Assembly (NCBI RefSeq): GCF_011734195.1
Contig: NZ_JAANTH010000001.1
Span: 124,001 to 188,000 of the forward strand
Direction of reading: 5' to 3'
Source: Halobacterium sp. R2-5
GTDB taxonomy: Archaea; Halobacteriota; Halobacteria; Halobacteriales; Halobacteriaceae
DNA: 64,000 nt
Position 1 is the first letter of the stretch. Each line of letters starts with the position of its first letter. Of the stretch, positions 3,316-51,675 are shown in pieces. Position numbers and translations under genes: made by a program. The notes under the pieces are model-generated. The model had not been told where the DNA came from, searched no databases, and saw only the letters and a program-made list of their open reading frames with translations.

Positions 3316-3423
3316 CGTTGCGGCTACGCCGTCCTCAGAAACGCTCCGCGTTTCTGATGGGCTACAGGAGAGTTCCGCTCTCCTGAACGCAACGTCATTC
3401 GGCGGTCGGCGTAGCCGACCGCC
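3316..3423. repeat. Cluster of perfect short palindromes, branched arrangement
   Basis: Part of the 440-base spacer between the convergent HD gene and pcn, which holds no credible gene. Hairpin 1: CAGAAACGC/GCGTTTCTG at 3336-3356. Hairpin 2: CAGGAGAG/CTCTCCTG at 3365-3385. An outer 7-base stem CGTTGCG/CGCAACG (3316-3322 and 3388-3394) encloses both. Hairpin 3: GGCGGTCGGC/GCCGACCGCC at 3401-3423 follows. Loops are 3-5 bases. The rest of the spacer (3424-3544) shows nothing recognisable before the 3'-end element next to pcn. Confidence 0.8.
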
Positions 3424-3544
3424 CAGCTCGCGTTCGCAGGCCGGCACGCCGCACCACAGCCTCGACCAGACCTGCGCGGTCGACTACGTCACGCCACGGG
3501 GTGGTCTCGTTCTCCTACTTGAACCTACGCAGCCGGTAGAAACA

Positions 3545-3710
3545 AGCATCCGCGAGCGAGTGGCTCGGAGGGCCCGAGGCGAGCGGTTCACTCGCGGCTT
3601 CGCCGCGAGGCCGACGACTGAGGGACGCGAAGCGGACCGAAGGAGGAGTGCTTTTAGCGTAGCTTTTGCCGAGTGAGGCGCGCTTCGCGCGCCTCACGCA
3701 GCGCAAAAGG
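3545..3710 (-). repeat. 3'-end palindromic mosaic element, copy 1 (after pcn)
   Basis: Read on the minus strand it starts 3 bases after the pcn stop with CCTTTTGCGCTGCG, continues into a perfect 11-bp hairpin (GTGAGGCGCGC with TTC loop, 3673-3697), then CGGCAAAAG and AAAAGCACTCCTC, a GC-rich palindromic body, and ends with CTCGCGGATGCT. The same order of blocks is present at 11443, 41001, 45208, 46383 and 51400. The T-run plus hairpin may end transcription of pcn; the body is an unexplained mosaic. Confidence 0.8.
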
Positions 3711-3713
3711 TAC

Positions 3714-4457
3714 TTAGTCGGACTGAATCCGCGGCGCGAGCATGTAGGTGACCCGTCCCTGCGCTTCGGCGATGTCGAAGTGAATCTTGACGGGGTACTC
3801 GTCGCCGAGTTCGAGTTCGACCTCGGCGTCTTTCGGGATGGCCTTGTTCATGTCCTTGAGGTAGTCGAGACTGAACAGGCTGTGGGCGTCGCCCGCCTCT
3901 AAGTCGATGAGGTCGTCGCGGGTGAGTTCGAGGTGGACGTCGTCGGTGTCGCCTTCCGCGTCGACGTAGAACAGTTCGTCTGCGGCGTCGACGCCGAGCG
4001 CGATGTGGTCGGAGACCATGTCGGCGGCGCGGACGGAGCGGTCGATGTCGGCGCCCTCGATGACGACGTTCGCGGAGAGGTCGAGGTCGGGGATGTCGGG
4101 CTCCTGGCGGATGGAGTCGGGGTCGATGAGCGCGAGCGTGTACTCGAGGCCGTCGATCTGGATGTGGAGCTTGCGGGTCTCCTCGTCGAGTTCGAGCTGG
4201 ACGAGCTGGTCGGAGTCGGCCATCCCGGCGATGTCTTCGAGCCGGGAGAGGTTGACGCCGATGATGCCGCCGTCGGCTTCGTAGGATTCGAACGCTGCGG
4301 CCCCGAGGTCGAGGTTGACCATGCCGACGTTCGCGGGGTCGACAGCGCGGATGGAGAGGCCGTCTTCGTCGAGGTGGATCTTGCATTCGTCCACCAGCAC
4401 GCTCACGGAGTCGAGCGTTTCCCGGAGCGTGTCGGCGCTCACAATCGCCTTGAACAT
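3714..4457 (-). CDS. pcn: DNA polymerase sliding clamp PCNA
   Basis: Homotrimeric ring clamp (247 aa) that tethers DNA polymerases, FEN1, ligase and other partners to DNA. The start [18 protein letters not shown] and the interdomain-connector and C-terminal regions (LAPRIQSD end) match haloarchaeal PCNA over the full length; acidic surface substitutions are evident. ATG at 4457 is preferred over an in-frame start 18 bases upstream because of the TATA box at 4481-4490 and the conserved N-terminus. It is followed at once by a palindromic 3'-end element. Confidence 0.97.
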
Positions 4458-10256: not shown

Positions 10257-11438
10257 ATGGCCGAGGAACCGGACGGCAGGCGCGACCGCGACCTCGACTG
10301 GGAGGGTGTCGTGTCCGCCGTCCGCCGCGTCGACGACGAGGACGACGGCGGGGACGACCTCACGCCAGTAGTCCGTCGTGTCGACGCCCAGGCCGACGCA
10401 GGCGACGACTGGAGCGACCTGACGCCGGCAGTCGAACAGGTCGCCGACCAGCGGTGGCCCGACCTCACGCCCGCCGTCGAGCGCGTCGAGGACGACGACG
10501 GCGACGAGTGGGACTGGGACACCGACGCCGTCGCGGCCGCCGGCGACAGCGCCGACCCCGCGTCCGGCGGCGAACCGCAGCTCCTCGCCGACGACGAACA
10601 CCAGGCCGACGAGCCAGAGCGCGGCCCCGACGACGACGCGCTCGACCCGCGGGAGAACTCCGTCATCGACGCCGACGAGACGCCGTCGTCGCCCGACGAC
10701 GGCCTCGGCATGGACGCCCCGGAGTCCGACGTCGAACAGCCGCTGGCCGTCCACGTCGAGGAGATGGTCAAGCGGCTCGCCATCGTCATCGCCATCGCCG
10801 GGCTCGTCAGCGTCGCCGTCTTCCCGCTCACCGAGGAGCTCATCACCACCATCTGGAACTACGTCCTCCCCGGCGGCGAGGCCGTCGACCCCCGCGTCTA
10901 CCAGCCGCTCGAACTCGTCATCACCCAGCTGAAGGTCGCCAGCCTCGCCGGCCTCGTCATCGCGCTCCCCGTCTTCGTCTACGAGTCCTACGCGTTCATG
11001 CGCCCCGGGCTCTACCGGAACGAGCGCCGCTACTACCTCGCCGCCGTCCCCACCAGCCTCGTCCTCGCCGTGCTCGGCGTCCTCTTCGCGTACCTCCTCG
11101 TCCTCCCGTACACGATGGACTACTTCCAGGGGTACACCGAGCCCACCGCGGACGTCGCGTTCGCGCTCGGCTCCACGTTCAACCTCATCCTCATGGTGAT
11201 GGGGTACCTCGCGGTGGTCTTCCAGATTCCCCTGTTCATCATGCTCGCCATCATGCTCGGCGTCACCACCCGCCAGTGGCTCGAAGACCGCCGCCTGCTG
11301 TTCTGGGCGGCGTTCGCCGGCATCTCGTTCACGTTCGGCGCCATCGACCCCACGGGCGTCGTCCCCATCATCGTCGCCATCACCATGATCGCGCTCTTCG
11401 AGGGGACGCTCGCGCTGCTGCGGTGGACTGGGAACTAG
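10257..11438 (+). CDS. tatC1: Sec-independent translocase protein TatC1 with acidic repeat extension
   Basis: Single-domain TatC of 393 residues; the TatC core spans about residue 160 to the end (HVEEMVKRLAIVIAIAGL, YQPLELVITQLKVASLAG, SYAFMRPGLYRNERRYY) with six helices. Residues 1-155 are an acidic extension with a repeated motif: DLTPVVRRV (34-42), DLTPAVEQV (54-62), DLTPAVERV (69-77), and a degenerate first copy at 15-25. The ATG at 10257 is chosen because CCTATAAC lies about 28-35 bases upstream. A 3'-end palindromic element begins just after the stop. Confidence 0.93.
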   Translation: MAEEPDGRRDRDLDWEGVVSAVRRVDDEDDGGDDLTPVVRRVDAQADAGDDWSDLTPAVEQVADQRWPDLTPAVERVEDDDGDEWDWDTDAVAAAGDSADPASGGEPQLLADDEHQADEPERGPDDDALDPRENSVIDADETPSSPDDGLGMDAPESDVEQPLAVHVEEMVKRLAIVIAIAGLVSVAVFPLTEELITTIWNYVLPGGEAVDPRVYQPLELVITQLKVASLAGLVIALPVFVYESYAFMRPGLYRNERRYYLAAVPTSLVLAVLGVLFAYLLVLPYTMDYFQGYTEPTADVAFALGSTFNLILMVMGYLAVVFQIPLFIMLAIMLGVTTRQWLEDRRLLFWAAFAGISFTFGAIDPTGVVPIIVAITMIALFEGTLALLRWTGN

Positions 11439-11442
11439 AACG

Positions 11443-11670
11443 CACTTTTTGCGCTGCGTGGGGCGCCTGCGGCGCCCCACTCGGCAAAAACTTGCGGAAA
11501 AAGCACTCCTCGCTCCAGCGCGCCTTCGGCGCTTAGTCGCTCGTCGGCCTGCGCTCACTCGCTTCGCTCGTTCGCGCAGTGAACCGCTCGCGCCTCGCGG
11601 CTCACGGGTCGCTTCGCTCCCCGTTCGCACAAACCGAGGCGCGTAGCGCCTCGCGGCGCTCGCGGATGCT
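11443..11670 (+). repeat. 3'-end palindromic mosaic element, copy 2 (after tatC1)
   Basis: Starts 4 bases after the tatC1 stop with CACTTTTTGCGCTGC, then a perfect 10-bp hairpin GTGGGGCGCC/GGCGCCCCAC (11458-11480), CGGCAAAAA, AAAAAGCACTCCTCGCTC, a palindromic body, and the end box CGCTCGCGGATGCT. It holds a 21-base block (11634-11654) identical to 51543-51563, and a 27-base block (11601-11627) identical to bases inside the gene at 22965-24014. No gene is seen in 11439-11733. Confidence 0.85.
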
Positions 11671-40998: not shown

Positions 40999-41000
40999 GA

Positions 41001-41177
41001 CGCACTTTTTGCGCTGTCGTTCGAGAGAGCGAAGCTCTCTCGTGATGACGAGAGACGCCCCCGACGTCTCTCGAACCACGAGAGGCGCGCTCCGCGCGCC
41101 TCACTCGGCAAAACTTGGGGGAAAGCGCTCACTCGCTACGCTCGGTCGCGCAGTGAACCGCTCGGCTCGCGGATGCT
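41001..41177 (+). repeat. 3'-end palindromic mosaic element, copy 3 (after radA)
   Basis: Starts 2 bases after the radA stop with CGCACTTTTTGCGCTG. In place of the single hairpin seen elsewhere it has three: CGAGAGAGC/GCTCTCTCG (41022-41042), CGAGAGACG/CGTCTCTCG (41049-41073), and GAGGCGCGC/GCGCGCCTC (41082-41102). Then CTCGGCAAAAC, the CGCAGTGAACCGCTCG block and the terminal GGCTCGCGGATGCT. Confidence 0.85.
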
Positions 41178-45207: not shown

Positions 45208-45270
45208 AGCATCCGCGAGCGAGCGGCCGAAGGCCGCGAGCGCAGCAAAAAGTGCGTAATAAAGTGCGTG
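45208..45270 (-). repeat. 3'-end palindromic mosaic element, copy 4, minimal form
   Basis: Read on the minus strand, 3'-proximal to the alanine-dehydrogenase-type gene: GCACTTTTTGCTGCGCTCGC, a short hairpin CGGCC/GGCCG (45224-45236), and the terminal GCTCGCGGATGCT. The body seen in other copies is missing. A partial duplicate of the GCACTTTAT start precedes it. This is also the spacer of two convergent genes. Confidence 0.75.
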
Positions 45271-46382: not shown

Positions 46383-46533
46383 CTAGCATTCGGCGGCCTT
46401 CGGCCGCCGATTCGCCGAGCGCGGAGTGCTCGGGCGCCGAGGACCCCCGAAGGGGGTCCGACGGCGCTTTTTAGCGTAGCTTTTTCCAGCGAACGAGGGC
46501 GCGATAGCGCCCGAGTGAGTGCAGGAAAAAGGT
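46383..46533 (-). repeat. 3'-end palindromic mosaic element, copy 5 (after thermosome)
   Basis: On the minus strand: ACCTTTTTCCTGCACTCACT after the stop, hairpin GGGCGC/GCGCCC (46498-46512, 3-base loop), CTGGAAAAAGCTACGC, hairpin GGACCCCC/GGGGGTCC with a 4-base loop (46441-46459) and CGGCGGCC/GGCCGCCG with TTC loop (46391-46409), ending GAATGCTA instead of GGATGCT. A more diverged copy; TAGCGTAGC plus T-runs recall copy 1. Confidence 0.75.
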
Positions 46534-46534
46534 A

Positions 46535-48220
46535 CTACATCATGCCGCCCATGCCGCCGCCCATGCCGCCCATGCCGCCGGCGCCGCCGGGGCCGCCGGC
46601 CGGCGGGCCCTCGTCGCCGCCGTCGTCGTCGCCGACCTGGCCGCCTGCGAGGTCGCCCGCGGCGATGACGTCGTCGATGCGGAGGATCATCGTCGCCGCT
46701 TCGGTGGCGGACTCGATGGCCTGGGTCTTCACGCGGAGCGGCTCGACGACGCCTTCGGCGTTCATGTCGATGACTTCGCCGGTGTAGGCGTCGAGCCCGG
46801 CGCCGGCTTCACCGGCGTCGTGCTGGCTGCGGAGGTCCACGAGGGAGTCGATGGGGTCGTGGCCCGCGTTCTCCGCGAGGGTGCGCGGGATGACTTCGAG
46901 CGCGTCGGCGAACGACTCGACGGCGAGCTGCTCGCGGCCGCCGACGGAGTCGGCGAACTGGCGCAGCTCCATGGCGAGCTCGGTCTCGGGGGCACCGCCG
47001 CCGGGCAGCACCTTGCCGTCCTCGAGGGTGACGCGGACGACGCCGAGGGCGTCGTCGATGGCGCGCTCGACCTCGTCGACGACGTGCTCGGTGCCGCCGC
47101 GGAGGATGAGCGTGACGGACTTGGCCTCTTCGACGTCCTCGACGAAGATGCGTTCGTCGCCGCCGATGTCCTTCTGGGCGACGCTACCGGCTTCGCCGAG
47201 GTCGCCGGCTTCGATGTCGTTGACGTTGGAGACGGGCGTCGCACCCGTGGAACGGGAGAGACGGGTGAAGTCGTCGGACTTCACGCGGCGGACGGCGAGG
47301 ATGCCCTCCTGCGCGAGGTAGTGCTGGGCCATGTCGTCGATGCCGCCGTCGACGAAGACGACGTTCGCGCCGGCGTCGGCGAGCGAGTCGGCCATCTCCT
47401 CGAGCTGTTCCTCTTCCTGGTCGAGGAACTGCTGGAGCTGGTCGGGGTCGGTGACGTTGACCTCGGTGTCGATCTCGGTCTCCTTGACCTCGAGGCCGTC
47501 GTCGACGAGCGCGATCTTGGCGTCCTCGACGGCGTAGGGCATGTTCTCGTTGACGCGCTCCTTGTCGACGATGACGCCCTCGACGAGCTCGGAGTTCTCG
47601 ATGGCGCCGCCGGTGACCTTCTCGACCTTGACGTTGTCCGTGTCGACGCTGTCGCCGTCGGCGACGGACTGGACGGCGCGCACGACGAGGCTGGAGAGGA
47701 CGTCCTTGGCGTTCTCCGCGCCCTTGCCGGTCATGGAGGTCGCGGCGAGCTTCTCGAGCTCCTCCGTGTCGTCGGGGGAGATGTCGACGGCCTTGTCCTC
47801 GAGGAGTTCGCGAGCCTGCTCGGCGGCCTGTCGGTAGCCCTGCGCGAGCGTGGTCGCGTGGATGTCCTGGTCGAGGAGGGTCTCGGCCTCGGAGAGGAGT
47901 TCACCGGCGACGACGACGGCGGACGTGGTGCCGTCGCCGACCTCGGTCTCCTGGGTCTCGGCGACCTCGACGATCATGTTGGCCGCCGGGTGCTCGATGT
48001 CCATCTCCTTGAGGATGGTGACGCCGTCGTTCGTGACGACGACGTTGCCCGTGGAGTCCACGAGCATCTTGTCCATGCCCTTCGGACCGAGTGTGGTCCG
48101 GGCCGCCTCGGAGACGGCTTTCCCGGCGGTGATGTTCATCGACTGTGCGTCCTCTCCGGAGGTGCGCTGGCTGTCCTCGGAGAGTACAATAAGTGGCTGA
48201 TTGCCCATCTGCTGCGCCAT
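46535..48220 (-). CDS. Thermosome (group II chaperonin) subunit
   Basis: Subunit of the ATP-dependent archaeal chaperonin, 561 residues. Motifs: [41 protein letters not shown], and [14 protein letters not shown]; the C-terminal tail is a Gly-Met repeat ([14 protein letters not shown]), typical of the cavity tail. ATG at 48220 gives [10 protein letters not shown]. The TATA box at 48247-48255 is strong, in line with high expression and heat induction. Confidence 0.96.
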
Positions 48221-51106: not shown

Positions 51107-51219
51107 GGCCGCGAGTAGGCAACCGAGCGGTTTAAACCCTCACACTCCGGGGTGCACGGAACGCCCTCACGGCGTCCCGGACCAGTACGCTTACCCCAGT
51201 GGTGGCGCTCCACCCGCAC

Positions 51220-51396
51220 ATGCTCGACAAACTCGGTCCCACCGGACTGCTCGGCGTCCTGCTGCTGGTCGCCGGCATCGCCGTCGTCGCCTGGAACGCC
51301 CCGATCGTCGCCGCCGGCCTCGTCCTCGTCCTCCTCGGCCTCGGCCTCGTCGTCCGCAGCGCCGCCAAATCCGTCATGGGGATGTTCGGCTTCTGA
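51220..51396 (+). CDS. Two-helix membrane protein (58 aa, DUF7470-like)
   Basis: MLDKLGPTGLLGVLLLVAGI then AAGLVLVLLGLGLVVRSAAK: two membrane helices with a short basic end. A tiny haloarchaeal family of unknown role. The ATG at 51220 is preferred over an upstream GTG at 51199. A palindromic 3'-end element follows. Confidence 0.78.
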   Translation: MLDKLGPTGLLGVLLLVAGIAVVAWNAPIVAAGLVLVLLGLGLVVRSAAKSVMGMFGF

Positions 51397-51399
51397 GGG

Positions 51400-51675
51400 C
51401 GCTTTTGCGCTGCGGGGCGCCTTCGGCGCCCCTCGGCAAAACCGACACCAAAAGCACTCCTCGCTCACTTCGCTACGCTCCGTTCGCTCGTCAGCCCGAG
51501 CGCTCACTGCTCACGGCTCGCTTCGCTCGCCGCTCGCACGTTCCGAGGCGCGTAGCGCCTCGCACCGTTCGCGCTCGGTGAACCGCTTCGTCCTCGTGAG
51601 CGAAGCCAACGAGGGACAAGCAGACCGGAGGTCTGCTCAGTCTCGGGTCCTCCGGACCGCTCGCTCGCGGATGCT
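51400..51675 (+). repeat. 3'-end palindromic mosaic element, copy 6 (after the 58-aa gene)
   Basis: Occupies most of the 348-base spacer 51397-51744, which has no credible gene. After GCGCTTTTGCGCTG comes hairpin GGGGCGCC/GGCGCCCC (51414-51432), CTCGGCAAAACC, AAAAGCACTCCTCGCTCACT, the 21-base block shared with copy 2 (51543-51563; hairpin CGAGGCGC/GCGCCTCG), CGGTGAACCGCTTCG, and GCTCGCTCGCGGATGCT. The final 70 bases before tyrS show nothing. Confidence 0.85.

Follow-up and report, generated by a model that had tools for sequence, protein, structure and literature searches.

How archaeal transcripts end, and how dense convergent genes are insulated from one another, are still poorly resolved. 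Archaeal T-tract terminators lie directly 3' of the coding region; in Haloferax volcanii, where hairpins close to 3' ends can terminate as well, termination was 95% at a T5C tract and 59% at one tested hairpin (PMC7237163). Structured repeats at gene ends are known from other systems as well. Bacterial REP/BIME sequences are dispersed extragenic palindromes, many of them downstream of genes and some near stop codons (PMC12306157), and bacterial RTS, stable structures immediately 3' of stop codons, constitute a statistical folding signal (PMC7518266). In the haloarchaeon Haloquadratum, PATEs, MITEs and SMRs are short, transposase-free palindromic elements that occur in many copies with nested insertions (PMC3119063). 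Here we describe a family of repeats found in a 64-kb stretch of Halobacterium DNA (the window, by which we mean the whole stretch that was analysed) and in related genomes. Like the archaeal T-tract terminators, these repeats have T4-5 directly 3' of the coding region; unlike them, the T-tract is an arm of a covarying stem, belongs to a repeated element of 150-280 bp and has counterparts in the opposite direction.

Results

The window was assigned to Halobacterium by RadA, which shares 95-96% identity with its counterparts in Halobacterium sp. KA-4 and CBA1126. The first-pass annotation of the window had described six palindromic elements at the 3' ends of genes. By reading, all six are present, each directly 3' of a stop codon and on the gene's own strand (Table 1), and the 21-base block said to be shared by two of them (11634-11654 and 51543-51563) is exact. 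Five of the six sites were recovered with R1, a covariance model of the 5' module built from an alignment of 34 modules (A1); the sixth, at 45208-45270, is a collapsed copy without the (C)GGCAAAA/A-run half. Similarly, the single block order proposed for all of them is found in five as leader, T-run, hairpin, A-run and A-run, with the collapsed copy falling outside it and the thermosome copy being a variant with another end block: it reads TACCTTTTTCC and ends in GCCGCCGAATGCT in place of CTCGCGGATGCT, and has TTTTTCC where other copies have TTTTGCGCTG. The elements had been said to start 2-8 bases after the stop codon. Since the strand following the A-run is the pairing partner of the leader, the true start is the leader, 0-4 nt after the stop. 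The gene upstream of the collapsed copy, labelled AlaDH-type, belongs to the ornithine cyclodeaminase/mu-crystallin family, and its ortholog is followed by a full element in Halobacterium relative G002 and in another genus (L144). The thermosome gene of G002 also bears a copy at its 3' side. At radA, a nested double-hairpin cassette enlarges the 5' module, and orthologous radA spacers occur both with and without the element.

Table 1. Gene-end elements and the adjoining R2 repeat in the window (R1 and R2, models described in the text)
Feature	Position (strand)	Upstream gene or stop	Model match	Parts
pcn (PCNA) element	3545-3716 (-)	stop TAA 3714-3716	R1, 3646-3716, 88.4 bits	leader GTACC, T4, apical hairpin, A4-GC-TAC, A4, hairpin body, end block CTCGCGGATGCT (3545-3556)
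tatC element	11439-11670 (+)	stop TAG 11436-11438; TatC Pfam match	R1, 11439-11508, 83.6 bits	leader CGCAC, T5 at 11446-11450, apical hairpin with TGC loop, A5 + TTGCG, A5; two more hairpin modules, then end block 11659-11670
radA element	40999-41177 (+)	radA	R1, 40999-41130	end block 41166-41177
Collapsed copy	45208-45270 (-)	ornithine cyclodeaminase/mu-crystallin-family gene		leader, T5, one hairpin and end block only
Thermosome variant copy	46383-46538 (-)	thermosome Pfam match	R1, 46462-46538, weak, E 0.012	
Element after short ORF	51395-51675 (+)	membrane-protein-like ORF, 51199-51396	R1, 51395-51459, 62.6 bits	leader GGCGC, T4, three extra hairpins, end block 51664-51675
R2 repeat copy	3412-3536 (-)		R2, E 1e-12	immediately 3' of pcn element, orientation shared

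Within the window alone, degenerate 12-mer matches (2 mismatches) number 24 against a shuffled mean of 14 (∼2-fold), which is weak evidence; the proof of the family is genome-wide. Across the 2.98 Mb of the genome, there are 19 occurrences of the end block CTCGCGGATGCT compared with 0 for its reversed-pattern control, and 25 of TTTTGCGCTG compared with 1. As judged by R1, whose E-values are rough, the genome holds 48 copies at E<=0.1 and 39 at E<=0.001. The outcome named in the first-pass annotation as refuting it, no more copies than in shuffled controls, did not occur, and its count of six was far too low. End block counts are 4-20 in most congeners, 2 in one congener and 0-4 in most other genera. 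At E<=0.001, 11 of the 12 congeners have 13-44 R1 copies each, most other genera of the family have 8-31, and several further families of the order have 1-20. When 120 genomes from across the phylum were scanned, the 12 with R1 matches all belonged to the order Halobacteriales, and the sampled genomes outside the order gave no match. The spread within the order is patchy: one f5 genus has 0 copies among the genomes listed and its sister genus 22, and a 99% complete Halobacterium genome of 2.4 Mb (G007) has 0 R1 and 0 R2 copies. Because that genome and the listed genomes of the f5 genus have no copy, the element is dispensable. Rfam gave no match in the window and none that was relevant at 14 element loci, even below threshold, and a literature search, with most subscription papers outside its reach, found no description of this element family. 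A viral origin was rejected, as IMG/VR viral contigs gave 0 matches to the full 5' module pattern; a bare 14-mer gave many and was uninformative.

Read in the sense direction, the stop codon is followed after 0-4 nt by the leader (NNN(A)C or NNNCC), T4-5, GC(GC)TGCG, an apical hairpin, C(T)CGGC and A4-5. After a further ∼2 nt come an NNN complementary to the leader, another A4-5 and a GC-ACTCCTC...GTCGTCGGCC hairpin, and a third hairpin then precedes GTGAAYC-stem-GRATGCT, giving a typical copy length of ∼150-280 bp. T10-13, A57-60 and A70-73 are invariant in 34 of 34 training rows of R1. The sense direction has a single T-tract, whereas the opposite strand has two T4-5 tracts ('GCTTTTTCCGCAAGTTTTTGCC'). 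By reading, there are no terminal inverted repeats, the ends (leader-T-run-GCGCTG and GCGGATGCT) not being inverted copies of each other. The RNA fold z of the pcn element is -2.50 on the sense strand and -3.25 on the opposite strand; that of the tatC element is -2.07. A nested double-hairpin cassette, CGTTCGA-[hp]-TCTCTCGTGATG-CGAAAGRCG-[hp]-CTTTCGAACCAC, was seen at differing places within elements (window 41010-41100; L008; L083; L146), as if it were a mobile submodule.

Secondary-structure covariation, a check proposed at the outset, was found in shuffle tests of both the leader and the apical stem. Next to the stop codon, the leader changes in concert with the strand that follows the A-run, in 23 complementary solutions (CGCA/TGCG, CCCA/TGGG, GTA/TAC, CGA/TCG, GAA/TTC, GGA/TCC, CTAAA/TTTAG and others), the mean match being 3.35 compared with 2.35 when shuffled (maximum of 2000 shuffles, 2.68). 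In the apical stem, 38 double changes were counted compared with 13.1 when shuffled, a number reached in 0 of 500 shuffles, and pairing was 89% at zero slide compared with 41-55% when slid. Several sequences pair in the 3' stem as well (mean 4.73 versus 3.74 shuffled, shuffle maximum 4.10). The apical stems are perfect Watson-Crick stems yet varied, sometimes with the loop flipped on the same stem, and have a 3-nt loop in 114 of 122 cases. These loops follow a triloop rule: 90 of the 114 (79%) are TNC or GNA, with a C-G closing pair in nearly all, and each such triloop reads C-GNA-G on one of the two DNA strands. C-GNA-G DNA hairpins are an extraordinarily stable class of minihairpins (PMC4686876). 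The GNA loop is on the opposite strand more often (65 versus 25, p 3e-5), and among other hairpins in the window loops of these two kinds occur at the chance rate (6/48).

Placement was examined for copies found by sequence alone, blind to gene context. With genes called by a simple codon model and relatives' loci taken mostly from top matches, 103 of 142 copies begin their T-run 3-10 nt past the stop codon of a sense gene (own genome 29/40, congeneric 53/72, outgroup 21/30), compared with ∼1% expected by chance given that each strand of the 64-kb window has about 36 stops. Many of the remaining copies also have a stop codon there, the gene being too short for the caller. The T-rich tract at the gene 3' end that marks an archaeal intrinsic terminator is thus present (T4 in 34/34 rows; position in 103/142 copies). 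One copy abuts a tRNA-Ser gene, 3' of it (L129). In four Halobacterium genomes (L029, L050, L055 and L077), an element lies just upstream of rps12, and in L029 its T-run is 49 nt upstream of the ATG; given the orientation of these elements, transcription heading into the promoter would be stopped by the double T-tract. These copies and the one at tRNA-Ser led to the rejection of strict coupling to translation; both positions fit terminators or insulators rather than translation.

Among 101 cases, 67 have a convergent downstream gene (67:34), compared with 38:34 (53%) in the window (p 0.007). Convergent genes frequently have a pair of elements facing one another between them, as near 444 kb on contig C1 and 210 kb on contig C2 in the own genome, and more such pairs were seen among other R1 matches. 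The upstream genes, mostly of core functions, encode PCNA, MetK, SurE, SAH hydrolase, EngB, PanB, DnaJ, KaiC-like, EF-2, FtsZ, TatC, EMC3-like, SufS-type, Cdc48-type and Lon proteins, polyprenyl synthetase, the EF-1 exchange factor, thermosome, RadA and, by reading, UvrA.

A second repeat, R2, is a 125-nt structured dispersed repeat (CTGCGTAGGTTCAAGTA...CGCCGCCTG; L356-L367) with 8-19 copies in most Halobacterium genomes as found with the model R2, and without an Rfam match. Of the 11 copies in the own genome, 7 immediately follow an R1 element and share its strand, for which the chance is 0.3% each. R2 is without a T-tract of its own. At 6 of 11 loci examined, exactly 6 nt separate its far end from the convergent gene's stop codon, and therefore on the other strand R2 looks like another gene-end element.

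Comparison of orthologous sites revealed that structure and position are conserved while sequence turns over, and that losses, decay and nested cassettes occur. Assuming 3000 genes and treating genes as independent, the sharing of element genes is far from chance: 10 of 15 sampled from G012 match the 29 of G000 (p 4e-18), and 7 of 21 outgroup element genes match Halobacterium element genes (p 8e-8). At the same orthologous gene, leaders and hairpins usually differ. Leader type is common to 16 of 59 ortholog pairs (27%) compared with 11.6% of random pairs, only a weak signal, and vertical descent of leader type was therefore rejected. Between G000 and G002, the tatC elements share ends and flanks, with inner hairpins swapped as cassettes. 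At pcn, full elements were found in six species, none in three, a collapsed remnant in one, different hairpins in one and a copy lacking the 5' module in one; the pcn gene of G002 is 99% identical yet without an element, showing that same-gene presence varies between close species. At orthologous sites, entire cassettes of hairpins and leaders have been replaced, which rules out point mutation as the sole source of divergence there; such divergence would have spoken against a discrete mosaic family. Decayed copies such as the collapsed pcn copy of G004 also occur, however. The first-pass description of a discrete, sense-oriented mosaic family at gene 3' ends is therefore upheld. The same element with a small downstream ORF follows pcn in G010 (L082) and another gene in G004 (L092), and the element therefore lies at a genome-rearrangement junction. 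Long direct repeats (about 50-75 bp) of the convergent neighbour's 3' tail flank two elements, one in Haloferax marinum (L048, 12360-12760, from the sufS tail) and one in the own genome (L114, around 1440-1800, from another gene), resembling an outsized target duplication or a tandem duplication.

Discussion

On balance, we lean toward the view that these modular gene-3'-end elements, found across much of Halobacteriales, act as compact bidirectional terminators/insulators; of the roles first suggested for them, that of terminator probably fits best. In the sense direction, RNA polymerase would reach T4-5 within 3-10 nt of the stop codon and be released there, so that the 3' UTR would be very short. 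Polymerase travelling the other way, from a convergent gene or by read-through, would transcribe the GC-rich hairpin body and then meet two T4-5 tracts, so that antisense transcription into the gene would stop. The invariant T-tracts in both directions, the 3'-end placement (including the tRNA gene and the promoter border), the convergent bias and the strength of T5C in H. volcanii together point to such two-way termination. We infer from the sequences that, besides terminating transcripts and protecting genes from antisense transcription, the elements may change over time as hairpins are replaced and as cassettes are exchanged through ectopic recombination or gene conversion. Against terminators stand the absence of copies from G007 and the listed genomes of the f5 genus and the variable presence at the same gene; furthermore, the T-run alone would terminate, and sense termination leaves the 150-280 bp structured body unaccounted for.

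The main rival reading is a non-autonomous mobile palindromic element, REP/MITE/PATE/SMR-like and possibly moved in trans by an HUH transposase recognising single-stranded DNA hairpins, which would enter or survive preferentially at gene 3' ends, where it is harmless. This reading is rather unlikely but serious: dozens of copies are dispersed per genome with shared leader subtypes (five GGCGC-type leaders in G000), their spread is patchy, orthologous sites differ in presence, cassettes are nested, the 79% of triloops that are C-TNC-G or C-GNA-G belong to the stable DNA minihairpin class on one strand (PMC4686876), haloarchaea have known transposase-free mobile repeats (PMC3119063), and gene-tail direct repeats surround two copies (L048, L114). 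However, the strictly sense-directed placement at 3-10 nt from stops, the strong sharing of positions between orthologs across families, the lack of terminal inverted repeats and the absence of the full 5' module pattern from viral contigs argue against it. The transposition-site role likewise finds no target duplication or precise empty site, none being definable because element-free orthologous spacers are too diverged or rearranged. Mobility could coexist with termination, as a mobile or exchangeable cassette retained because it terminates.

It is improbable, in our view, that the elements act instead as mRNA 3' structures, REP- or RTS-like, in which a stem beside the stop protects from 3' exonucleases or stalls or insulates ribosomes. 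The covarying stem base 0-4 nt after the stop would suit this role, as would the reported lowering of translation by E. coli REPs <16 nt from the stop (PMC12306157) and the bacterial RTS immediately 3' of stops (PMC7518266). Nevertheless, T4-5 lies in the 5' arm, and sense transcripts ending there would therefore be without the stem; no stop codon is available to the copies that adjoin the tRNA gene or precede the rps12 promoter; and the opposite strand of the pcn element folds at least as well as the sense strand. Still less credible, and indeed very improbable, is a by-product of DNA repair, whereby template switching makes hairpin-prone terminators perfectly palindromic, gene conversion in the polyploid cells copies them, and nothing but the T-tract is functional. 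The perfect stems with loops flipped on the same stem, the rearrangement junction between G010 and G004, and the efficient gene conversion reported in H. volcanii (PMC11276520) are consistent with it, but the multiblock anatomy is conserved with a leader that covaries across families, and the T- and A-runs are invariant in all training rows.

Returning to terminators/insulators, we raise the more speculative, and as a whole rather unlikely, proposal that Haloarchaea have dedicated, exchangeable two-way terminator cassettes, whose position at core genes would be kept over family-level time while the structured sequence is repeatedly swapped, its shape being under selection for hairpins that are C-GNA-G minihairpins on one DNA strand, and that the second, unrelated gene-end repeat R2 may serve the facing gene in convergent pairs. 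Repeated, structurally constrained elements at the ends of core genes offer many natural replicates for two-way termination and a case of conserved position with replaced sequence, and R1 provides an annotation model for the order Halobacteriales.

Comparison with known systems

Compared with REP/BIME, the elements are longer, modular and archaeal, with fixed sense orientation and stop distance, varying stems and GNA/TNC triloops. They are not classical REPs, which are 20-40 nt palindromes with a 5' GTAG/GGAG-type tetranucleotide, because of their length (∼150-280 bp) and because no tetranucleotide is fixed, there being >20 leader solutions. Streptococcal BOX elements are likewise modular hairpin repeats with variable inner modules, but they have other sequences and are not known to be tied to the 3' ends of genes with a single orientation. 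With RTS, the elements share a stable structure immediately 3' of stops, which most copies abut; RTS, however, are not a repeat family, and the elements described here also follow a tRNA-Ser gene and precede the rps12 promoter. With the Haloquadratum PATEs, MITEs and SMRs the elements have in common a short palindromic form, apparently without a transposase, high copy number and nested insertions; the near-terminal palindromes of the IS605-derived PATEs are related to IS605-type ends. The elements are not MITEs or SMRs because they have no terminal inverted repeats, and they differ from all three Haloquadratum groups in being placed at gene ends, at positions shared by orthologs across families.
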